From assembly GCF_002160255.1 (NCBI RefSeq), contig NZ_NFKF01000004.1, positions 62,001 to 126,000 on the forward strand: a stretch of DNA of 64,000 bases, in the 5' to 3' direction. The notes beneath the pieces are model-generated. The model saw only the letters and a program-made list of their open reading frames with translations. It was not told where the DNA came from and searched no databases. The translations under genes and the position numbers were made by a program. Source of the DNA: Olsenella sp. An188. GTDB lineage: Bacteria; Actinomycetota; Coriobacteriia; Coriobacteriales; Atopobiaceae. Below are positions 2,523 to 62,661 of this stretch, piece after piece (the first letter of the stretch is position 1; each line of letters begins with the position of its first letter).

Positions 2523-3632
2523 ATGGGGAAGATCATGGACTACGTGCACGTGCCGTCGAGGTTCATGCCGCACCGGCCCGAGCCGGGTGCGCGGCGCGAC
2601 GCCTACGACGCGCTGGTGGACGGCCTACTCGAGTATCGCGGGAGCGTCCGGGTGCCGCGCGGGGTGACGATGGAGGACCTGGACAGGCTCGTCGACCTGG
2701 TGAAGCTGGACTTTCCGGAGCTCTTCTACGTGGGCTCGGGGACCATCACCTCAAGGAGGCTCGGGCACTGCCAGGTCTCCCTCGAGTACGCCCCGTGCTA
2801 CCGCCTGGGCGAGAAGGACGTCCTGTCCACGCTCGAGGCCATGGAGCGCGCGACCGACGAGGTGGTCCGTGAGCTCACCCTCACGCGCCCCCAGGTGCTG
2901 CCCGGGGCGGTGTCGTACGACGACCACACGCTCGACGACCTCACCGCGCTGCACGACTGGCTCGTCCGGCGCTTCGCGTACGCGGACGGGGACCGCCCGT
3001 ACGCGCACGAGGCCCCCGGACCGCTCGTGTACGGCGTCGGGGTCTGCGAGGGCGTTGCCAAGGCGTACAAGTACCTCTGCGACCGCTGCGGCCTCGCCTG
3101 CTGCGTGGTCACGGGAGAGGCGCAAGACCCCGGGTGCCCGTCGGACGCCCCCGGGCCCCACGCCTGGAACCTCGTCAGGGTGCCCTCGCGCGAGGTGTGG
3201 CGCCGCCGCGACGAGCCGCCCCCGTGCCGCGAGGCCGAGTGGGCCAATGTGGACGTGACCTTCGACGCCTCGCTCTCGCACGCCATCGTCCGGCACGACT
3301 ACTTCGGCGTCACGGACGCCGCGATCGCCGCGAGCCACCGCCGCGACGCGTCGTGCCCGCTTCCGGGCGGGAACGCCTCCCTGCGCTACTACGAGAGCAA
3401 AAACCTGGTGGCCACCGCCGCGACGCGCCTCGCCCAGATCGTCGACTTCGACCTGCCTCGCCTGGGCGGGGCGGAGTTCGTTATGCCGTGCATCTGGGGC
3501 GGCCGCCCCCAGGTGGACCAGGCGGTGGAGCACGGGCTGGCGAAAAGCTCCGAGCTCGGCCGCGCTGGCCGCGCCTACGCCATCTACCCCAACTACGACC
3601 GCATGGTCTTTGGCGTGGAGGTGCTCTCGTGA
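2523..3632 (+). CDS. transglutaminase-like superfamily protein
   Basis: 369 residues; ATG 2523 lies just after the previous stop with GAGG 6-9 nt upstream, and the open frame further upstream is antisense-like noise. The central part has the transglutaminase/protease-like Cys-His-Asp arrangement: GVCEGVAKAY with Cys175, PHAWNLV with His213 and ANVDVTFD with Asp244. A helix containing DDHTLDDLTALHDWLVRRF precedes the core, as in many bacterial transglutaminase-like proteins. Such proteins act as peptidases, amidases or crosslinking enzymes; no signal peptide is visible, so a cytosolic target is more likely. The next gene begins inside its stop codon (GTGA), implying translational coupling. Family call is firm; substrate is unknown. 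Confidence 0.78.
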   Translation: MGKIMDYVHVPSRFMPHRPEPGARRDAYDALVDGLLEYRGSVRVPRGVTMEDLDRLVDLVKLDFPELFYVGSGTITSRRLGHCQVSLEYAPCYRLGEKDVLSTLEAMERATDEVVRELTLTRPQVLPGAVSYDDHTLDDLTALHDWLVRRFAYADGDRPYAHEAPGPLVYGVGVCEGVAKAYKYLCDRCGLACCVVTGEAQDPGCPSDAPGPHAWNLVRVPSREVWRRRDEPPPCREAEWANVDVTFDASLSHAIVRHDYFGVTDAAIAASHRRDASCPLPGGNASLRYYESKNLVATAATRLAQIVDFDLPRLGGAEFVMPCIWGGRPQVDQAVEHGLAKSSELGRAGRAYAIYPNYDRMVFGVEVLS

Positions 3633-51048: not shown

Positions 51049-51124
51049 ACCGGATACGCGTCCCCCGGAGAGGGGCGCGATGGCACGGCTAGTGTTCCCG
51101 ACAGTTCAGTTAGGAGTGAAAGAC

Positions 51125-52507
51125 ATGGCCAACGGACAAAGCTTCCTCGACAGGTTCGCGGAAGTCTCCGCCAAGGTCGGCAACCAGGTGCACCTGAGAA
51201 GCCTTCGCGACGGCTTCGCCACCATCATGCCGATCTTCATCCTCGCCGGCATCGCGGCGCTGCTCAACAACGTCGTCTTCACGTTCCTGTGGAGCGCGGA
51301 CCCGGGCAGCCCCGGGCTCTTCCCGAACGCCGACGTGCTCGCCACGGCCCAGTACTGGGGCAACTCGCTCACGCAGGGCGCGCTCTCCATCTCGGCCGTC
51401 CTGCTGTGCGCCATGGTGGGCTACAGCTTCGCGAGCAACAAGCGCTTCGACAACCCCGTCTCGTGCGTGGTGGTGGCGCTCGCGGTCTTCTTCATCATGA
51501 TGCCGCAGGCGGTCGCCGCCGACCTCTCCGCCTCGTCGCCGCTCTACGTGGCCGAGGAGGTGACCACCGCCCAGGTCTCGGGCGCGTTCGTCACGGACTA
51601 CACGGGCACCAACGGCATGTTCACCGCCATCATCATCGGCCTGTTCGCGCCCACGCTCTTCATCAAGGTCTCGGGCGTCGAGGGGCTGCGCATCAAGATG
51701 CCCGAGGGCGTGCCGCCCGCGGTCGAGAAGTCCTTCAACGTCCTGATCCCGATGCTGCTCACCCTGGGCGCCTTCGGCGTGCTCTCGATGGCTCTCTACG
51801 CGGGCTTCCAGACCGACGTCACCGCCCTCATCAACACCTTCATCCAGACCCCGCTGCGGGCCCTCACCACCAACCCGGTCGGCCTCGTGGTGATCTACTC
51901 GCTCGGCGTGTTCCTGTTCACCCTCGGCATCCACCAGTCCACCATCAACGGCGTGCTCGTCGAGCCCGTCCTCACGGTCGTGCTCGTCGAGGCCATGGAC
52001 CTCTACTCCGCCGGCGGCATGGACGCCGTCCTGGCCCGCCCGGACGTCTGGCTGAACATGAACGTCATCAACGTCTACGCCCTCATGGGCGGCTCCGGCT
52101 GCACCCTCGCCCTGCTCATCGCGACGTTCGTCTGGGGCAGGTGGCGCCCCTCCCGCGAGGTGGCCAAGCTCGGCATCCTGCCCGCCATCTTCAACATCAA
52201 CGAGCCGGTCATCTACGGCTACCCGATCGTGTTCAACATCCCGCTCATGGTCCCGTTCGTGCTCAACACCGTCATCGGCATCCTCGTCGGCTACTTCGCC
52301 ACGGTCGTCGGCCTCGTCAGCCCCACCTGCATCCAGGTGCCCTGGACCACCCCGATCGTCGCCTCGGGCGTCCTGTCCACGGGCGGCGACATCCGCGCCG
52401 GCGTTCTCCAGATCGTGCTGCTGGCGATCTTCACGCTGGTCTACCTGCCCTTCATGAAGGCGTCGGAGACCGCGCAGCGCAAGCAGTTCGAGATAGCCCA
52501 GGAGTAG
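51125..52507 (+). CDS. celB: PTS lactose/cellobiose family EIIC component
   Basis: 460 residues from ATG 51125, chosen because TAGGAG lies 9-14 nt upstream and the protein then begins like other EIIC (MANGQSFLDRFAEVSAKVGNQVHLRSLRDGFATIMPIFILAGIAALLNN). About ten membrane helices follow. VGLVVIYSLGVFLFTLGIHQSTINGVLVEP and ILPAIFNINEPVIYGYPIVFNIPLMVPFVL are EIIC signatures, the latter containing the NEP sugar-binding motif. It transports the beta-glucoside while EIIB phosphorylates it. Confidence 0.95.
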   Translation: MANGQSFLDRFAEVSAKVGNQVHLRSLRDGFATIMPIFILAGIAALLNNVVFTFLWSADPGSPGLFPNADVLATAQYWGNSLTQGALSISAVLLCAMVGYSFASNKRFDNPVSCVVVALAVFFIMMPQAVAADLSASSPLYVAEEVTTAQVSGAFVTDYTGTNGMFTAIIIGLFAPTLFIKVSGVEGLRIKMPEGVPPAVEKSFNVLIPMLLTLGAFGVLSMALYAGFQTDVTALINTFIQTPLRALTTNPVGLVVIYSLGVFLFTLGIHQSTINGVLVEPVLTVVLVEAMDLYSAGGMDAVLARPDVWLNMNVINVYALMGGSGCTLALLIATFVWGRWRPSREVAKLGILPAIFNINEPVIYGYPIVFNIPLMVPFVLNTVIGILVGYFATVVGLVSPTCIQVPWTTPIVASGVLSTGGDIRAGVLQIVLLAIFTLVYLPFMKASETAQRKQFEIAQE

Positions 52508-52528
52508 CCGCGTAGCTCGCCCCACCTG

Positions 52529-52567
52529 GGGCCGCAGGCGAGCAAAATCTCCCCGCGCCTGCGGCCC
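52529..52567 (+). terminator. 12-bp hairpin between EIIC and EIIB genes
   Basis: GGGCCGCAGGCG (52529-52540) pairs exactly with CGCCTGCGGCCC (52556-52567); the loop is 15 nt. It lies inside the operon, so partial termination or mRNA stabilisation is more likely than full stop. Confidence 0.5.
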
Positions 52568-52653
52568 GCCCTGCCTCAGACTGTACGTAACCGCACGTAA
52601 CGCGCCCGAAAGGGCCGCGGGGGCGCGAGCCCCGCAACGAAAGGAGCGTCACC

Positions 52654-52953
52654 ATGAAGATCATGCTCTGCTGCAACGCCGGAATGTCCACGAGCCTGCT
52701 CGTCCAGAAGATGCAGAAGGAGGCCGCGGCTCGCGGCATGGACGTGGCCATCGAGGCCCGTCCCATGAACGAGGCCATGGACCACATCGGCGAGGCCGAC
52801 GTCATCCTCCTCGGGCCCCAGATCGGCTACGCCAAGGGCGACTTCGAGAAGGCCGTCGACGGCCGCATCCCCGTCGCCGTCATCCCGATGGTCGACTACG
52901 GCCGCATGAACGCCCCGAAGATCCTCGACGACGTGGCCGCCCTTCTCGGCTAG
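52654..52953 (+). CDS. celA: PTS lactose/cellobiose family EIIB component
   Basis: 99 residues; ATG 52654 has AAAGGAG upstream. The N-terminal LCCNAGMSTSLLVQKM is the EIIB active site, with phospho-cysteine Cys7 in C-x2-GMSTS. ADVILLGPQIGYAK and AVIPMVDYGRMNAPKIL complete the fold. It transfers phosphate from EIIA to the sugar in the EIIC pore. Confidence 0.95.
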   Translation: MKIMLCCNAGMSTSLLVQKMQKEAAARGMDVAIEARPMNEAMDHIGEADVILLGPQIGYAKGDFEKAVDGRIPVAVIPMVDYGRMNAPKILDDVAALLG

Positions 52954-52987
52954 CCGCGAGCACCCGACCGCAGAGAGGAGAGGTCTG

Positions 52988-53323
52988 ATGGACGAAGAGA
53001 TGGAGATGATCTGCTTCCAGATCATCAGCTGCGTGGGCACCGCAAAGTCCTGCTACGTCAACTCCATCGCCAAGGCCGAGGAGGGTGACTTCGAGGCCGC
53101 CGAGGAGCTCATCAAGCAGGGTGACGAGGCATACGCCGCCGGGCATGACGTTCACATGCAGCTTCTGACCTCCGAGGCCAACGGCGAGCGCAAGGGCACC
53201 CCGCTGCTGCTCCTGCACGCCGAGGACCAGATGGCGAGCGCCGAGACCTGCAAGCTCATGGCGCAGAACTTCGCCAAGGTCTACCGCGAGCTCCTCGAGC
53301 TCAGGGGCGTGGCGAGCGCGTAG
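52988..53323 (+). CDS. celC: PTS lactose/cellobiose family EIIA component
   Basis: 111 residues; ATG 52988 has GAGAGGAG upstream. It is an all-helical EIIA: EEMEMICFQIISCVGTAKSCYVNSIAKAEEGDFEAAEELIKQGD, then LLLLHAEDQMASAETCKLMAQ with the phospho-histidine His77. It receives phosphate from HPr and passes it to the EIIB Cys7. Confidence 0.95.
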   Translation: MDEEMEMICFQIISCVGTAKSCYVNSIAKAEEGDFEAAEELIKQGDEAYAAGHDVHMQLLTSEANGERKGTPLLLLHAEDQMASAETCKLMAQNFAKVYRELLELRGVASA

Positions 53324-53379
53324 CGCGAGGCCGCGCCGGCGCCTGGGAGCCGGGCACAACCGCATGTTCATCGCACGTT

Positions 53380-53411
53380 GAAGGGCGCTGCCGGAGACGG
53401 TGGCGCCCTTC
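53380..53411 (+). terminator. 9-bp hairpin between EIIA and GH4 genes
   Basis: GAAGGGCGC (53380-53388) pairs with GCGCCCTTC (53403-53411) across a 14-nt loop, just before the ribosome site of the GH4 gene. Likely an intra-operon attenuating or stabilising structure. Confidence 0.45.
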
Positions 53412-53448
53412 TGAGAAAGGGAGCGTTTCCGACAGAAGGGAGCCATAC

Positions 53449-54831
53449 ATGGCCGAGAAGAACGAGAGCACGCAGGGCCGTCGCCCGATCAAGATCGTCA
53501 CCATAGGCGGTGGCTCGAGCTACACCCCCGAGCTCGTCGAGGGCTTCATCAAGCGCTACGACTCCTGCCCGGTGCGCGAGCTGTGGCTCGTAGACGTGGA
53601 GGAGGGGCGCGAGAAGCTCGAGATCGTGGGCCGGCTCGCCCAGCGCATGGTCGAGGCGGCCGGCCTCCCCATGGAGGTCCACCTCACGCTCGACCGCCGC
53701 GAGGCGCTCGCGGGCGCGGACTTCGTCACCACGCAGTTCCGCGTGGGGCAGCTCGACGCGCGCATCAAGGACGAGCGCATCGCACTCAAGCACGGCCTCA
53801 TCGGGCAGGAGACCAACGGCGCGGCGGGCATGTTCAAGGCCCTACGCACCATCCCGGTGATCTTCGACATCATCCGTGACATGGAGGAGCTCTGCCCCGA
53901 CGCCTGGCTCGTCAACTTCACCAACCCGGTGGGCATCGTGACCGAGGCGGTGCTGCGCTATACCAGCTGGAAGAAGATCATCGGCCTGTGCAACTGCCCG
54001 ATCTCCATGCGCTTTGGCATCGCCAAGTGGATGGGCGTGGACCCGGACCGCGTGCGCATGGAGCTCTCCGGCCTCAACCACCACTTCTTCGTGACCGACG
54101 TCTTCATCGACGGGAGGAGCCGCTTCGACGAGGTGCTCGAGCGCTACTGCGAGCTGCCCGTAGAGGAGCTCGGCACCATGAAGAACATCATGGCCATCCC
54201 CTGGTCCAAGCGTCTCATCCGCGGCCTGCGCGCCATCCCGGTGAGCTACCTCAACTACTACTTCTCCACGCGCGAGGAGCTCGAGCAGCTCGAGAGGGAC
54301 TATCGGGCCCACGGCGTGCGCGCGGAGGTGGTAAAGCAGGTCGAGGCCGAGCTCTTCGAGCTCTACAAGGATGCCGGGCTGCACGTCAAGCCCAGGCAGC
54401 TCGAGGAGCGCGGCGGCGCGTACTACTCCGACGCAGCGTGCTCGGTGATCGACTCCATCGTGAACGACCGCGGCGACGTCCAGTACGTCGACGTCCAGAA
54501 CAGGGGCGCCGTCACGAGCCTGCCCTACGAGAGCGCCGTGGAGTGCGCCTGCGTCATCACCGGTGACGGCCCCAAGCCCATCGTGGTGGGGGAGCTCCCT
54601 CCCGCCATCAGCGGCACCATCCAGATGACCAAGAGCTTCGAGCGCATGGTTGCCGAGGCCGCCGTGACCGGAAACGGGGACGTTGCCGTGGCGGCGCTCG
54701 TGGCCAACAAGCTCTGCGACTCCGACGCCGTGGCCAACGAGGTCTTCGACGAGCTCTGCGAGGCGCACAAGGACTACCTCCCGCAGTTCTACAACGCCGA
54801 CGGCACGCCGAGGGAGGCCGCGCGCGTTTAG
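53449..54831 (+). CDS. celF: glycoside hydrolase family 4, 6-phospho-beta-glucosidase
   Basis: 460 residues; ATG 53449 follows AGAAGGGAGC. The NAD-binding start is KIVTIGGGSSYTPELVEGF. GQETNGAAGMFKALRTIPV, LVNFTNPVGIVTEAVLRY and the metal-binding GLCNCPIS with GLNHHFFVTD match GH4 (Cys and His ligands for Mn2+). GH4 enzymes cleave phospho-glucosides by an NAD-dependent elimination route. Together with the GH1 gene, the operon has two mechanistically different phospho-glucosidases. Confidence 0.94.
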   Translation: MAEKNESTQGRRPIKIVTIGGGSSYTPELVEGFIKRYDSCPVRELWLVDVEEGREKLEIVGRLAQRMVEAAGLPMEVHLTLDRREALAGADFVTTQFRVGQLDARIKDERIALKHGLIGQETNGAAGMFKALRTIPVIFDIIRDMEELCPDAWLVNFTNPVGIVTEAVLRYTSWKKIIGLCNCPISMRFGIAKWMGVDPDRVRMELSGLNHHFFVTDVFIDGRSRFDEVLERYCELPVEELGTMKNIMAIPWSKRLIRGLRAIPVSYLNYYFSTREELEQLERDYRAHGVRAEVVKQVEAELFELYKDAGLHVKPRQLEERGGAYYSDAACSVIDSIVNDRGDVQYVDVQNRGAVTSLPYESAVECACVITGDGPKPIVVGELPPAISGTIQMTKSFERMVAEAAVTGNGDVAVAALVANKLCDSDAVANEVFDELCEAHKDYLPQFYNADGTPREAARV

Positions 54832-55758: not shown

Positions 55759-55787
55759 TTGCGCGCCTCGCGCGGCGTTGGTAGTCT
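55759..55787 (+). promoter_or_regulatory. candidate promoter of the Met-rich leader and metNIQ
   Basis: TTGCGC (55759-55764), 17-nt spacer and TAGTCT (55782-55787). The ATG at 55795 lies 7 nt beyond the -10, so transcription would start at or next to it and the leader mRNA would be leaderless. Confidence 0.45.
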
Positions 55788-55794
55788 AGCCCGC

Positions 55795-55929
55795 ATGCTT
55801 TGCGCAGCCGGACATAACGCGATGATGACCCAGATGATGGTCATGGGGATGCCCAAGCCCGGGCACTCCATCCTCGCGTGCGGCGCGCGTGTGCGGCTCG
55901 TGCGGGTGGAGACCGGGCGCCTCCAGTAG
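55795..55929 (+). CDS. candidate methionine leader peptide (44 aa)
   Basis: The short ORF has seven methionines in its first 19 residues, including the run MMTQMMVMGM at residues 10-19. It ends 59 nt before the methionine transporter gene metN. Leader peptides rich in the regulated amino acid control attenuation in many operons. The mRNA after it can fold in different ways: GGCTCCG (55935-55941) can pair with CGGAGCC (55974-55980), which would cover the metN ribosome site, and GGGAG (55942-55946) can pair with CTCCC next to the start. Attenuation is inferred, not shown. Confidence 0.55.
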   Translation: MLCAAGHNAMMTQMMVMGMPKPGHSILACGARVRLVRVETGRLQ

Positions 55930-55988
55930 GGCCGGCTCCGGCGGGAGACGGCCCGTCCCTGTCACCCCCGTGAGCGGAGCCACCTCCC

Positions 55989-56730
<742 letters not shown>

Positions 56731-56738
<8 letters not shown>

Positions 56739-57414
56739 CCTTGTTTCCGAGTTCGTGGCCGAGTACGGGGCGCTTCTCGCCGAGGGGACGCTCTCGACCA
56801 TCGTGATGACGCTCGTCCCCACGGCCATCTCGTACGTGATCGGCCTCGCGCTCGGCGTGGTGCTCTACCTCACGGCGCCCGGCTCGCTGCGGCCCCTGCC
56901 GGTGCTCAACGCCGCGCTCGGCTGGGTGGTCAACGTCCTGCGCTCGTTCCCGTTCATCGTGCTCATGGTGTTCATCATCCCGCTCACGCGGCAGATCATG
57001 GGCACCGGGTCGGGCCTCGCCGGTATCATCCCCCCGCTCGTGCTGGCCACGGCGCCCTTCATCGCGCGCATGGTCGAGCAGTCGCTGGCCGAGGTGCCGC
57101 GCGCGACCGTGGAGGCCGTGGAGGCGTGCGGCGCGAGCGTGCCGAGGATCGTGCTCTCGGCGCTCCTGCCCGAGGCGCTGCCGTCGATCGTGCGCGGCGC
57201 GGCCGTGGTGCTCATCGCCGTGCTGGGCTACACGGCCATGGCGGGCGCCATCGGGGCGGGCGGCCTGGGCGACATCGCCGTGCGCTACGGCTACTACCGG
57301 CGCGTGGACGAGGTCATGTGGGTGGCCGTCGTGGTGCTCGTCGTGATTGTGCAGGCCATCCAGAGCGCCTGCGACCTCGCGGCCCGCAGGGTGGACCACC
57401 GCATGCGCGGTTAG
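56731..57414 (+). CDS. metI: methionine-type ABC transporter permease
   Basis: 227 residues; ATG 56731 has GGAGAGGG upstream within metN. Five membrane helices are visible. VLRSFPFIVLMVFIIPLTR and the coupling-loop EAVEACGASVPRIVLSALLPEALPSIVRG are MetI signatures, as is YTAMAGAIGAGGLGDIAVRYGYYR. It forms the membrane channel of the transporter. Confidence 0.94.
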
Positions 57415-57492: not shown

Positions 57493-58332
57493 ATGTCTTG
57501 CGTTTCTCGCCGCTCCCTCCTGTCCGCCGCCGCGCTGCTCGCCACGGGCGCGCTCGCCGCGTGCTCCGGCTCGGGCGACGCCGGGTCCTCCGAGGGTGGC
57601 TCCACCCTGCGCGTGGGCGCCTCGCCGAGCCCGCACGCCGAGATCCTGAGCGACTTTGCCGCGCCGCGCCTGGCCGAGCGGGGCATCACGCTCGAGGTGC
57701 GCGAGTACACCGACTACCTGCTGCCCAACCAGGACGTCACGGCAGGAGAGCTGGACGCCAACTACTTCCAGCACATCAACTACCTCAACAACTACAACGA
57801 GGAGAACGGCACGGACCTCGTGAGCGCCGGCAAGGTCCACTTCGAGCCGATGGGCGTCTTCGCGGGCCGCTCGAGCGACCTCGCCAGCGTGCCCGAGGGC
57901 ACGACGATCTCCGTGCCCAACGACGCCACCAACGAGGGCCGTGCGCTGCTCCTGCTGCAGGAGGCGGGCGTGATCGCGCTGTCTGAGGACGCCGGCCTCA
58001 CCGCCACGGCAAACGACATCGCGGACAACCCGCACGGCGTGAGGATCCTGGAGCAGGAGGCGGCGATGCTGCCGTCCACCCTGGCCGACGTGGACTTCTC
58101 CGTGATCAACGGCAACTACGCCATCGACGCGGGGCTCACGCTGGCCGACGCGGTCGCCGCCGAGAGCGCGGAGTCCGACGTCATCGCCAACGAGTACGCC
58201 AACGTGATCGCCACGACGCCCGAGCTCTCGGACGACGAGCGCGTGCGGGCCCTCGTCGAGGTGCTCCAGACCGACGACTTCAAGGCCTACCTCGACGAGA
58301 CCTTCGGCGACGCCGTCCAGGCCGCGTTCTAG
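57493..58332 (+). CDS. metQ: methionine-binding lipoprotein
   Basis: 279 residues; ATG 57493 has AAAGGAG upstream. A lipoprotein signal ends in LAAC with Cys24. The NlpA/MetQ fold begins TLRVGASPSPHAEILSDFAAPRLAERGITLEVREYTDYLLPNQDVTAGELDANYFQHINYL, with NDATNEGRALLLLQEAG and DFSVINGNYAIDAGL as further family motifs. It is anchored outside the membrane and delivers methionine to MetNI. A 78-bp spacer with an A+T-rich GATATATC element precedes it. Confidence 0.94.
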   Translation: MSCVSRRSLLSAAALLATGALAACSGSGDAGSSEGGSTLRVGASPSPHAEILSDFAAPRLAERGITLEVREYTDYLLPNQDVTAGELDANYFQHINYLNNYNEENGTDLVSAGKVHFEPMGVFAGRSSDLASVPEGTTISVPNDATNEGRALLLLQEAGVIALSEDAGLTATANDIADNPHGVRILEQEAAMLPSTLADVDFSVINGNYAIDAGLTLADAVAAESAESDVIANEYANVIATTPELSDDERVRALVEVLQTDDFKAYLDETFGDAVQAAF

Positions 58333-59973: not shown

Positions 59974-61185
59974 GTGAGCGAGAAGATCAGGTGGGTCGCC
60001 AACAAGATGCCCAAGAGCGAGGACGCGCAGCTGGCGGTGATGGCGCTCGACAACGTGGCGAAGGCCCGGGCCTTCCACCGCGGCTTCCCGCAGTACTCCG
60101 TGACGCCGCTCGCCAAGCTCGACGGCATGGCCGAGCGCCTGGGCCTCGGCGGCCTCTTCGTCAAGGACGAGTCCTACCGCTTTGGCCTCAACGCCTTCAA
60201 GGTGCTCGGCGGCTCGTTCGCCATGGCGCGCTACATCGCGCAGGAGATGGGGCGCGACGTCTCCGAGATGACCTACGACTACCTCACCTCCGAGCAGTTC
60301 CGCGAGGACTTCGGCCAGGCGACCTTCTTCACCGCCACCGACGGCAACCACGGCCGCGGCGTGGCCTGGGCTGCCAACAAGCTGCACCAGAAGGCCGTCG
60401 TCCACATGCCGAAGGGCTCCACCAAGACCCGCTTCGACAACATCGCCAAGGAGGGCGCCGAGGTCACCATCGAGGAGGTCAACTACGACGACTGCGTGCG
60501 CATGGCCGCGGCCGAGGCCGCAGAGACCGAGCACGGCGTCGTGGTGCAGGACACCGCCTGGGACGGCTACGAGGAGATCCCGTCCTGGATCATGCAGGGC
60601 TACGGCACCATGGCCGCGGAGGCCGCCGATCAGCTGCGCGCCCTCGAGGTCAACCGCCCGACGCACGTCTTCGTCCAGGCCGGCGTGGGCTCGCTCGCGA
60701 GCGCCATGGTGGGCTTCTTCGCCAACCTGTTCCCCAGCTGCCCGCCCAAGTTCGTGATCATGGAGGCCGGTGCCGCCGACTGCCTCTACCAGGGCGCGCT
60801 TGCCGCCGACGGCGACCCGCGCATCGTGGGCGGCGACCTCCAGACCATCATGGCCGGCCTCGCGTGCGGCGAGCCCAACACCATCGGCTGGGACATCCTG
60901 CGCAACCACGCCGACGCCTTCGTCTCCTGCCCGGACTGGGTGGCCGCCAACGGCATGCGTCGCCTGGCCGCCCCGGTCAAGGGCGACCCGGCCGTCACCT
61001 CCGGAGAGTCCGGCGCCGTGGGCATGGGCGTCATCACCGCCATCATGACCGACCCGGACTACGCCGACCTGCGCGACGAGCTGGGCCTCGACAAGAACAG
61101 CCAGGTCCTGCTCTTCTCGACCGAGGGCGACACCGACCCGGAGCGCTACGCGCAGATCGTGTGGGACGGCGCCTGGAGCAGGTAG
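59974..61185 (+). CDS. ygeX: diaminopropionate ammonia-lyase
   Basis: 403 residues; GTG 59974 with GAGGAGGA upstream. It is a PLP fold type II enzyme that converts 2,3-diaminopropionate to pyruvate and two ammonia. RFGLNAFKVLGGSFAMARY has the PLP lysine Lys76; TDGNHGRGVAWAANKL and SGESGAVGMGVITAIM bind substrate and PLP phosphate. DTAWDGYEEIPSWIMQGYGT is a further family motif. Together with ygeY and ygeW it forms a conserved cluster linked to selenium-dependent purine or amino acid catabolism. Confidence 0.95.
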   Translation: MSEKIRWVANKMPKSEDAQLAVMALDNVAKARAFHRGFPQYSVTPLAKLDGMAERLGLGGLFVKDESYRFGLNAFKVLGGSFAMARYIAQEMGRDVSEMTYDYLTSEQFREDFGQATFFTATDGNHGRGVAWAANKLHQKAVVHMPKGSTKTRFDNIAKEGAEVTIEEVNYDDCVRMAAAEAAETEHGVVVQDTAWDGYEEIPSWIMQGYGTMAAEAADQLRALEVNRPTHVFVQAGVGSLASAMVGFFANLFPSCPPKFVIMEAGAADCLYQGALAADGDPRIVGGDLQTIMAGLACGEPNTIGWDILRNHADAFVSCPDWVAANGMRRLAAPVKGDPAVTSGESGAVGMGVITAIMTDPDYADLRDELGLDKNSQVLLFSTEGDTDPERYAQIVWDGAWSR

Positions 61186-61254
61186 GCGGGGGACGACCGG
61201 GGCCCGGGGCCCCGTTGGGAACGTATCGGAAGCGTCAGAAAGGACGTAAGCAAA

Positions 61255-62661
61255 ATGGCCAAGGAACTGGACTTCGATCAAATCAGGAAGGCAGCCGAGG
61301 GCTACGGCAAGGACATGACCGCGTTTCTGCGCGCCATGATCTCCCACCCGTCCGAGTCCTGCGAGGAGGGCGAGGTCGTGGCCTGCATCAAGGCCGAGAT
61401 GGAGAAGCTCGGCTTTGACAAGGTGGAGGTCGACGGCCTGGGCAACGTCATCGGCTGGATGGGCGAGGGCGACAAAATCATCGCCATCGACTCGCACATC
61501 GACACCGTGGGCATCGGCAACCGCGACAACTGGGAGGCCGACCCCTACGAGGGCTACGAGACCGACGACGTCATCTACGGCCGCGGCGGCTCCGACCAGG
61601 AGGGCGGCATGGCCAGCGCCACCTACGCCGCCAAGATGATGAAGGACCTCGGCCTCATCCCGGAGGGCTACAAGATCATGGTCGTCGGCTCGGTCCAGGA
61701 GGAGGACTGCGACGGCATGTGCTGGCAGTACATCGTCAACAAGTACTTCGACGGCCCGGAGGACGCGCGCGAGAAGATCGAGTTCGTGATCTCCACCGAG
61801 CCCACCGACGGCGGCATCTACCGCGGCCACCGCGGCCGCATGGAGATCCGCGTGGACGTGCACGGCGTCTCCTGCCACGGCTCCGCGCCCGACCGCGGCG
61901 ACAACGCCATCTACAAGATGGCCGACATCATCGCCGACGTCCGCGCCCTCAACAACAACGGCTGCGACGAGTCCACCGACATCAAGGGCCTCGTCAAGAT
62001 GCTCGACCCCAAGTACAACCCCGAGCACTTCGAGGACGCCCGCTTCCTCGGCCGCGGCACCTGCACCGTCTCCCAGATCTTCTACACCTCGCCGTCCCGC
62101 TGCGCCGTGGCAGACTCCTGCGCGATCTCCATCGACCGCCGCATGACCGCCGGCGAGACCTGGGACTCCTGCCTCCAGGAGATCCGCGACCTGCCTGCCG
62201 TCAAGAAGTACGGCGACGACGTCAAGGTCTCCATGTACATGTACGACCGCCCGAGCTGGAAGGGCACCGTCTACGAGACCGAGGCCTACTTCCCCACGTG
62301 GATCAACGCCGAGAGCGCCGCTCACGTCCAGGCCCTCGTCGACGCGCACCACGCGCTCTTCGGTGACGAGCGCATCGGCTGCGAGGCCTCGATGGACAAG
62401 CGCACCGGCCGCCCGCTGACCGACAAGTGGACCTTCTCCACCAACTGCGTCTCCATCCAGGGCCGCTACGGCATCCCGTGCGTGGGCTTCGGCCCCGGCG
62501 CCGAGAGTCAGGCGCACGCCCCCAACGAGGTCACCTACAAGCAGGACCTCGTGACCTGCGCCGCGCTCTACACCGCCGCGCTCAACCTCTACGACCCGTC
62601 CAAGAAGACCGGCGACGTGACGGTCTTCCGCGCCGGCGCCACGGACAACGACATCCAGTAA
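61255..62661 (+). CDS. ygeY: YgeY family M20 metallohydrolase
   Basis: 468 residues; ATG 61255 has AAAGGACG upstream. M20 zinc peptidase motifs: [10 protein letters not shown] (first His/Asp), [13 protein letters not shown] (bridging Asp), [11 protein letters not shown] (catalytic and binding Glu) and the C-terminal [13 protein letters not shown]. The whole sequence follows YgeY, which is linked to selenium metabolism clusters. Its precise substrate is not established. Confidence 0.94.

Follow-up and report, generated by a model that had tools for sequence, protein, structure and literature searches.

A conserved Met-rich leader upstream of metNIQ in Coriobacteriia, a probable methionine-responsive attenuator

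In Gram-positive bacteria, the control of methionine genes is usually ascribed to SAM riboswitches, T-boxes or repressors, and the S-box SAM riboswitch (RF00162) controls such genes in many of them. The locus described here raises the question whether methionine uptake can be placed under another kind of control. An initial annotation of the window (the whole stretch of 64,000 nucleotides that was analysed) had proposed that a short, Met-rich and probably leaderless open reading frame (ORF) upstream of metNIQ attenuates the operon by ribosome stalling at its Met codons. Conservation of the leader, its promoter geometry, a second set of leaders upstream of metY and the absence of a SAM riboswitch support this proposal at the level of sequence, and we consider it likely that the leader is a methionine-responsive, ribosome-mediated attenuator.

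The leader ORF and its promoter

The arrangement given in the initial annotation was borne out by the sequence. On the forward strand, a predicted −35 element TTGCGC (55759-55764) is followed after a 17-nt spacer by a predicted −10 element TAGTCT (55782-55787), which lies 7 nt 5′ of the ATG of a 44-codon ORF (MLCAAGHNAMMTQMMVMGMPKPGHSILACGARVRLVRVETGRLQ, 55795-55929) of which both the frame and the Met run are conserved. The predicted 44-amino-acid leader peptide contains the run MMTQMMVMGM that had been read in it (55822-55851, with the final Met codon at 55849-55851), and its TAG stop codon, ending at 55929, is separated by 59 nt from the metN ATG at 55989. A Shine-Dalgarno sequence for metN (GAGCGGAG) is located at 55972-55979.

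The downstream genes had been named metNIQ, and metN, metI and metQ are indeed their best NCBIfam matches, each scoring under the curated cut-off. The methionine ABC transporter ATPase gene metN (55989-56738, 249 amino acids) has TIGR02314 as its best match, under the full-length cut-off, with Pfam ABC_tran above cut-off; the permease gene metI (56731-57414, start codon taken from the sequence) matches NF008049 with 191.7 bits compared to a cut-off of 212; and metQ (57493-58332), for the methionine-binding lipoprotein, has NF008285 as best match, under cut-off, next to Pfam PF03180. With only 249 amino acids, the MetN of the window has no C-terminal regulatory (NIL) domain in Pfam and its alignment with TIGR02314 covers 240 of 343 positions; in E. 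coli MetN, the NIL domain gives methionine feedback. No methionine link was seen for the upstream neighbours, a PTS EIIC component and a family 4 glycosidase (51080-54831), nor for those downstream, a PLP-dependent enzyme and an M20 peptidase (59974-62661).

For comparison, 55 metN upstream regions were inspected, consisting of the window and 54 of the 80 nearest metN loci, of which the closest carry the names Olsenella, Thermophilibacter, Atopobium, Collinsella, Enorma and relatives, placing the window in Coriobacteriia, near Olsenella and Thermophilibacter. The 26 omitted loci are L041, where the contig begins within metN, and 25 others that are nearly all much more distant. These 55 regions were scanned for CCCGGGC and a pair of TANNNT and start codon, leaving frame, spacing and segment 2 (see below) free. 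In addition, a set of 48 non-redundant leaders (at most 92% identity) was chosen by the motif GATGCCC..GCCCGGGC.C together with an in-frame start, so that the invariance of core, spacing and frame among these 48 is partly by construction. Counts on 41 leaders refer to this set minus seven, dropped because their metN match begins after residue 1. The leader start in L167 was assigned by hand, copying its near twin L168.

A TANNNT −10 element is present 6 to 10 nt 5′ of the start codon in all 48 non-redundant leaders, at exactly 7 nt in 40 of them, and a TTG −35 element at 16 to 18 nt from the −10 in 44. Among 26 further leaderless leaders the −10 recurs in 25 and the TTG −35 in 23, with TTGACA-N16 in eight. 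Within the window, on both strands, merely 2 of 1364 ATGs combine a TANNNT 5 to 11 nt upstream with a TTG hexamer 15 to 19 nt further up, and one of these two is the leader's own ATG. This geometry suggests that transcription starts at the leader ATG; a start downstream of the ORF, which would contradict the initial proposal, appears improbable with a promoter conserved directly 5′ of the start codon.

Close to the start, at an offset of 17 nt after the A of the ATG, lies an ACATA element (55812-55816). Of the 48 leaders, 43 have it at this offset and three at offset 18, the remaining two having ACAGA at 17; as it is found in two reading frames, it is conserved at the nucleotide level. A general leaderless-ACATA pattern gave four sites in the window's own genome and none in the reversed control. 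One of the three other sites (L276) was rejected, as by eye it resembles the start of a longer reading frame.

The coding character of the leader is apparent from its Met codons. ATG accounts for 179 of the 692 codons between start and last Met in the 48 leaders, whereas 1000 mononucleotide shuffles average 12.3 Met codons and never exceed 23; in the other two frames it occurs 3 and 0 times. The distance from start to last Met takes eight values between 39 and 60 nt, every one a multiple of three, and a codon-blind MAFFT alignment likewise places the gaps of this region in threes. Agreement in frame was also found where it had not been required, the promoter-proximal start being in phase in all 42 leaders detected in the 55 regions (some of these have additional candidate starts, one of which is out of phase). 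Further downstream, 42 of the 48 leaders keep segments 1 and 2 apart by a multiple of three, because the ORF usually continues through, and the distance from segment 2 to metN (n=41) falls into all three phases (19, 14 and 8). The leader ORF and its Met run are thus real and not a product of chance. Their enrichment in Met codons is tied to downstream methionine genes, as in a leader-peptide attenuator, with the ORF presumably translated. That the ORF arose by chance, or is translated without having a regulatory role, is practically out of the question in the light of its frame conservation, its promoter geometry, its association with methionine genes and the covariation described below.

Distribution of the leader in front of metN and metY

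The initial annotation had implied that a Met-rich ORF should be conserved before metN in related genomes. A leader with TANNNT 6 to 10 nt before an in-phase ATG was found in 42 of the 55 metN upstream regions; it was not found in the other 13, of which twelve are MAG loci (L051-L062; Clostridia, Ruminococcus, Erysipelotrichaceae) and the thirteenth is L043 (Parafannyhessea umbonata). A strict pattern combining the last Met codon with segments 1 and 2 was run on 396 genomes of the class and matched 61 of them, in one copy each, with no match in the reversed control. These belong to two families, f1 (22 genomes) and f3 (39 genomes), read as Atopobiaceae and Coriobacteriaceae from the named metN loci. 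All 61 sites have metN downstream, with 66-100% identity, and the genome of the window has one match to the strict pattern and one to a covariance model of the leader (model R1). ORF and Met run are kept in two families, and in a third (f2, which we take to be Eggerthellaceae) they have diverged. In L043, another inverted repeat (GAACCAAGC/GCTTGGTTC, by eye) is present upstream of position 3001, directly before the Shine-Dalgarno sequence.

Ten leader-negative genomes of the window's genus were tested, nine negative according to model R1 and one (G101) by peptide search only. Eight of them have neither a metN match (E 1e-70 or better) nor a metQ match (E 1e-30 or better). Of the remaining pair, one is a genome in which a contig begins within metN, and the other is G087, which carries a more distant metNIQ locus (metN 56-57% identity) from which the leader is absent. 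In genus g40, all seven sampled leader-negative genomes are also without a metQ match. Leader and transporter thus appear to have been largely gained or lost together. In G087 (L283), metN itself looks leaderless, following a perfect inverted repeat (AGCAATAACCTATGA/TCATAGGTTATTGCT).

With a threshold of E 0.01, model R1 detects 143 of the 396 class genomes. We read 60 further loci, mostly weaker matches (unfetched matches, many of them above E 5e-4, lie outside the counts), and these have metN downstream in 25 cases, metY in 29 and neither in six. In other orders of the class, a Shine-Dalgarno-led leader, e.g. MVRFAAFVMMMDMMMTQPGSSRACEGSGRLGHPAVA, precedes the gene for O-acetylhomoserine sulfhydrylase at 28 loci in 25 genomes, the NCBIfam runs behind the metY assignment covering three N-terminal pieces. 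Before metY, the leaderless form is found in one f1 genome (L264). Three genomes contain two metY genes, each with a Met leader of its own (L225 and L239 in G181, L230 and L267 in G241, L226 and L262 in G229). A second model, R2, built solely from the 28 metY leaders, matches 47 of 396 class genomes, of which 34 are in other orders (25 of them already read) and 13 are weak matches in the window's order, ten of the latter coinciding with R1 leader sites. Among 246 genomes of the phylum, the class included, neither R1 (10 hits, E 1e-4) nor R2 (1 hit, E 1e-3) matched outside the class. The recurrence of the same design of Met run and helix before two unrelated methionine genes constitutes the best comparative evidence for methionine as the signal.

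The six loci with neither metN nor metY downstream (L257, L258, L260, L261, L268, L269) were rejected as candidates, and all but L261 look by eye like chance matches within coding DNA; the three of them in f2 (L257, L261, L268) are not leaders of the f2 metN type. L261 (1210-1410, minus strand) contains a leaderless-looking ORF of 66 codons (MFIFAAHITAGETAGAVARARWAEQC..., with a repeated RWAEQC) with ACATA before a transporter-like gene, possibly encoding another leader peptide.

Known RNA families were searched for as well. Rfam gave no match at gathering threshold over the whole window, two matches at E up to 10 around the leader, neither being a riboswitch, and for 20 further loci merely below-gathering matches at loose thresholds (E up to 10 or 1), again without a riboswitch. 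The SAM riboswitch RF00162 is ruled out as the controlling element here, in line with the initial annotation: it is absent from all 25 genomes of the genus, own genome included, while it exceeds its cut-off in 4 of 40 relatives, all from other families of the order, and was found in the B. subtilis control. A metabolite-binding RNA of another kind, i.e. a SAM or methionine aptamer that contains the ORF by coincidence, could account for the conserved unpaired GCA/A internal loop in helix 1:2 and for ACATA near the start. We consider it highly improbable, however, since the Met run is in frame and changes length by triplets, the Rfam matches at loose E include no riboswitch family, and in the 28 Shine-Dalgarno-led metY leaders ACAT is absent from offsets 17-18 and, where present, belongs to GAC-ATG codons of the Met run.

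RNA structure and the output step

Following the Met run, segment 1 (55857-55869, with the GCCCGG core at 55857-55862 and an extension at 55866-55869) would form the 5′ strand of helix 1:2, the 3′ strand of which is segment 2 (55908-55918, extension at 55908-55911 and CCGGGC core at 55913-55918). The last Met codon and this helix are 5 nt apart in all 42 metN leaders that were found without requiring the spacing, and the same distance holds throughout the 26 further leaderless leaders and the 28 metY leaders. The core GCCCGG/CCGGGC is invariant in the 48 leaders, which were themselves picked with it; in the extension, 94.8% of the cells are paired and two of the four pairs show two-sided changes. 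A two-sided change of the core was found in f2, where the 12 metN leaders read have GCCUGG or GCCUGA with UCAGGC and an in-frame stop codon one base after segment 2. Further on, hairpin 3:4 (GGGCCGGCUCC, loop GGCG, GGAGACGGCCC; 55929-55954), of which the first base in the window is the last base of the leader stop codon and which leaves the metN Shine-Dalgarno sequence outside, shows two-sided changes at all ten counted pairs of the 48 leaders, with 92.8% of the cells paired (shuffles 86.4%, slid alignments no more than 58.2%) and none of 500 shuffles reaching any of the five measures. The covariation of the 1:2 extension was likewise reached by none of 500 shuffles. Both predicted structures, helix 1:2 and hairpin 3:4, are therefore supported by covariation.

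The initial annotation had assumed alternative pairings between the ORF and metN. The two helices just described agree with that idea, but the candidate antiterminator 2:3, on which the alternation would turn, does not stand out clearly from shuffles: 78.8% of its cells are paired compared to 77.5% in shuffles (27 of 500 equally high), and its covariation score is matched by 16 of 500, with sliding reducing the pairing to at most 56%.

Partition-function folding with the ribosome footprint blocked was performed on 41 leaders in a free, a stalled and an at-stop state. Helix 1:2 has a mean probability of 0.80 when free (1.00 in the window) and 0 when stalled, where it is blocked by construction. 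Hairpin 3:4 has mean probabilities of 0.51, 0.49 and 0.25 in the free, stalled and at-stop states, and of 0.00, 0.01 and 0.00 in the window. Folding energy therefore shows no switch between the states, and the case for hairpin 3:4 is one of covariation and not of folding energy. The automatic hairpin finder chose another hairpin in at least L020, L120 and L167.

From these features we infer that the leader is translated, that ribosomes stall on it, where the transcript begins, in which direction the system responds and that the output is premature termination. The transcript would begin at the A of the leader ATG, and a ribosome would follow the polymerase closely, translating the Met-rich ORF. 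Under a shortage of charged Met-tRNA it would wait on the Met run. With the last Met codon in the A site, the ribosomal footprint would extend over the greater part of the 5′ strand of helix 1:2, thereby blocking the helix, and metNIQ (in other orders metY) would be expressed; a ribosome stalled at an early Met codon would remain short of helix 1:2. When methionine is plentiful, the ribosome would reach the stop codon and either helix 1:2 would form or the ribosome would cover segment 2, after which hairpin 3:4 would form and the transcript would end before metN. The stop codon touches the base of hairpin 3:4 in 19 of 41 leaders and is at most 2 nt away in 25, so that a ribosome positioned there would interfere with 3:4; in other leaders the stop codon precedes segment 2 or lies between segments 1 and 2.

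We think that premature termination is the likelier output and that translational control is its main rival. According to the latter, which we regard as rather doubtful, the same stall at Met codons would act on a full-length mRNA by exposing the metN ribosome-binding site. That most leaders in the window's group have poor U-tracts would fit this explanation: at least five T in the 12 nt after hairpin 3:4 occur in 6 of 41 of these leaders, the window itself having three T, compared to 8 of 12 f2 metN leaders and 4% of background windows. The terminator-like hairpins of f2, for their part, speak for attenuation by premature termination. Also in favour of translational control, translation attenuation has been attributed to the cysteine biosynthetic genes of M. 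smegmatis (PMC13236596), and stalling renders the metN start region more open in 26 of 41 leaders; the gain exceeds 0.1 in eight, and in two a change of that size goes the opposite way. The mean change of the unpaired metN start is small, however, from 0.351 when free to 0.379 when stalled, and duplexes between the Met run and the start region are of no greater strength than those with other parts of metN, ranking as chance (median rank 0.43, at most 0.05 in 2 of 41, window 0.19), so that this pairing, striking by eye in the window, was rejected. The RNAalifold structure pairs the Shine-Dalgarno sequence with the GCCC that follows the last Met; this pairing was rejected too, as that structure offers no Shine-Dalgarno partner with two-sided changes. 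Neither the antiterminator 2:3 nor masking of the Shine-Dalgarno sequence is thus supported as the output step.

Another explanation places the stall in the peptide itself, with the conserved M-P-x-P-G-H arresting the ribosome on methionine or SAM. It draws on the presence of M-P-x-P-G in all 42 leaders of the 55-region scan, which were found by CCCGGGC alone, and on the retention of P-G in the metY type. In those 42 leaders, however, the third position of the first Pro codon is invariant too, which points to a constraint at the nucleotide level; f2 reads M-L-K-P-G or M-P-K-P-G, and the codons used there for the last two residues, CCT-GGG or CCT-GAG, suit the changed helix; and metY leaders mostly read M-T-Q-P-G. 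Moreover, the diverged leaders at L264 (301-424) and L266 (301-440) end at most two codons past the last Met (M-P-stop and M-L-stop) and still keep the −10, the Met codon and the helix, so that the peptide past the Met codon seems dispensable. Arrest by the nascent peptide is accordingly judged improbable, and stalling at Met codons for want of charged Met-tRNA remains our preferred reading.

Relation to known attenuators and significance

The Cys-rich upstream ORFs of mycobacteria are reportedly leaderless, going by the title of a 2020 study by Canestrari. Amino-acid leader peptides, leaderless ones included, are known in Actinobacteria, and the mycobacterial Cys-rich attenuators also represent an actinobacterial short ORF that is rich in the codon of the supplied amino acid (PMC4633059); they differ in responding to cysteine in place of methionine and are said to act by translation attenuation (PMC13236596). 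A 2005 comparison describes mycobacterial cys leaders without conserved hairpins that could be terminators and, before methionine operons of the actinobacteria then compared, no conserved RNA structures (PMC1262725).

Most similar is metL of Streptomyces lividans TK24, a proposed leaderless leader peptide before metNIQ (PMC8079986). Like the leader studied here, it is a short ORF with Met codons for which attenuation was proposed, and likewise no typical Rho-independent terminator is reported (PMC8079986). Unlike here, a Met run and M-P-x-P-G-H are both absent from its peptide (MSTTSDRTPATEATTTPGARCMCRRMCAF), and the description consulted deals with one organism and several hairpins without a cross-species comparison (PMC8079986). 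Models R1 and R2 had no match outside the class in the 246 genomes of the phylum, and the likeness of the two leaders is taken here as one of anatomy. The ilvBNC and ilvB1 attenuators of Corynebacterium and Mycobacterium have, likewise, an upstream ORF with control codons followed by mutually exclusive hairpins (PMC11857589, PMC13236596, PMC11109978), but these are described with a clear intrinsic terminator and antiterminator, whereas here support for 2:3 is not clear and most leaders of the window's group have no U-tract. In the literature covered, which was mainly open-licence, nothing closer than S. lividans metL was found for a Met leader or for a Coriobacteriia attenuator. As far as searched, the Coriobacteriia Met leader is a new, well-supported family of a known kind, absent from Rfam 15.

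A broader and more speculative idea, which as a whole we hold to be unlikely, is that of an old Coriobacteriia methionine regulon built on a single dual-coded element. This element, a Met-run peptide combined with an RNA helix, would act on metY in some lineages and on metN in others and would replace SAM riboswitches. The output of the regulon would be neither a canonical terminator nor Shine-Dalgarno masking, and ACATA and the GCA/A loop could be extra contacts for polymerase, Rho or ribosome.

The Met leader provides a covariance model that can be used for annotation. Moreover, its natural series of forms (leaderless before metN, Shine-Dalgarno-led before metY, with and without U-tract) offers a way to ask how attenuators work without strong intrinsic terminators. 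If the proposed attenuation is true, a group with common gut bacteria, e.g. Collinsella, would sense charged Met-tRNA instead of SAM.
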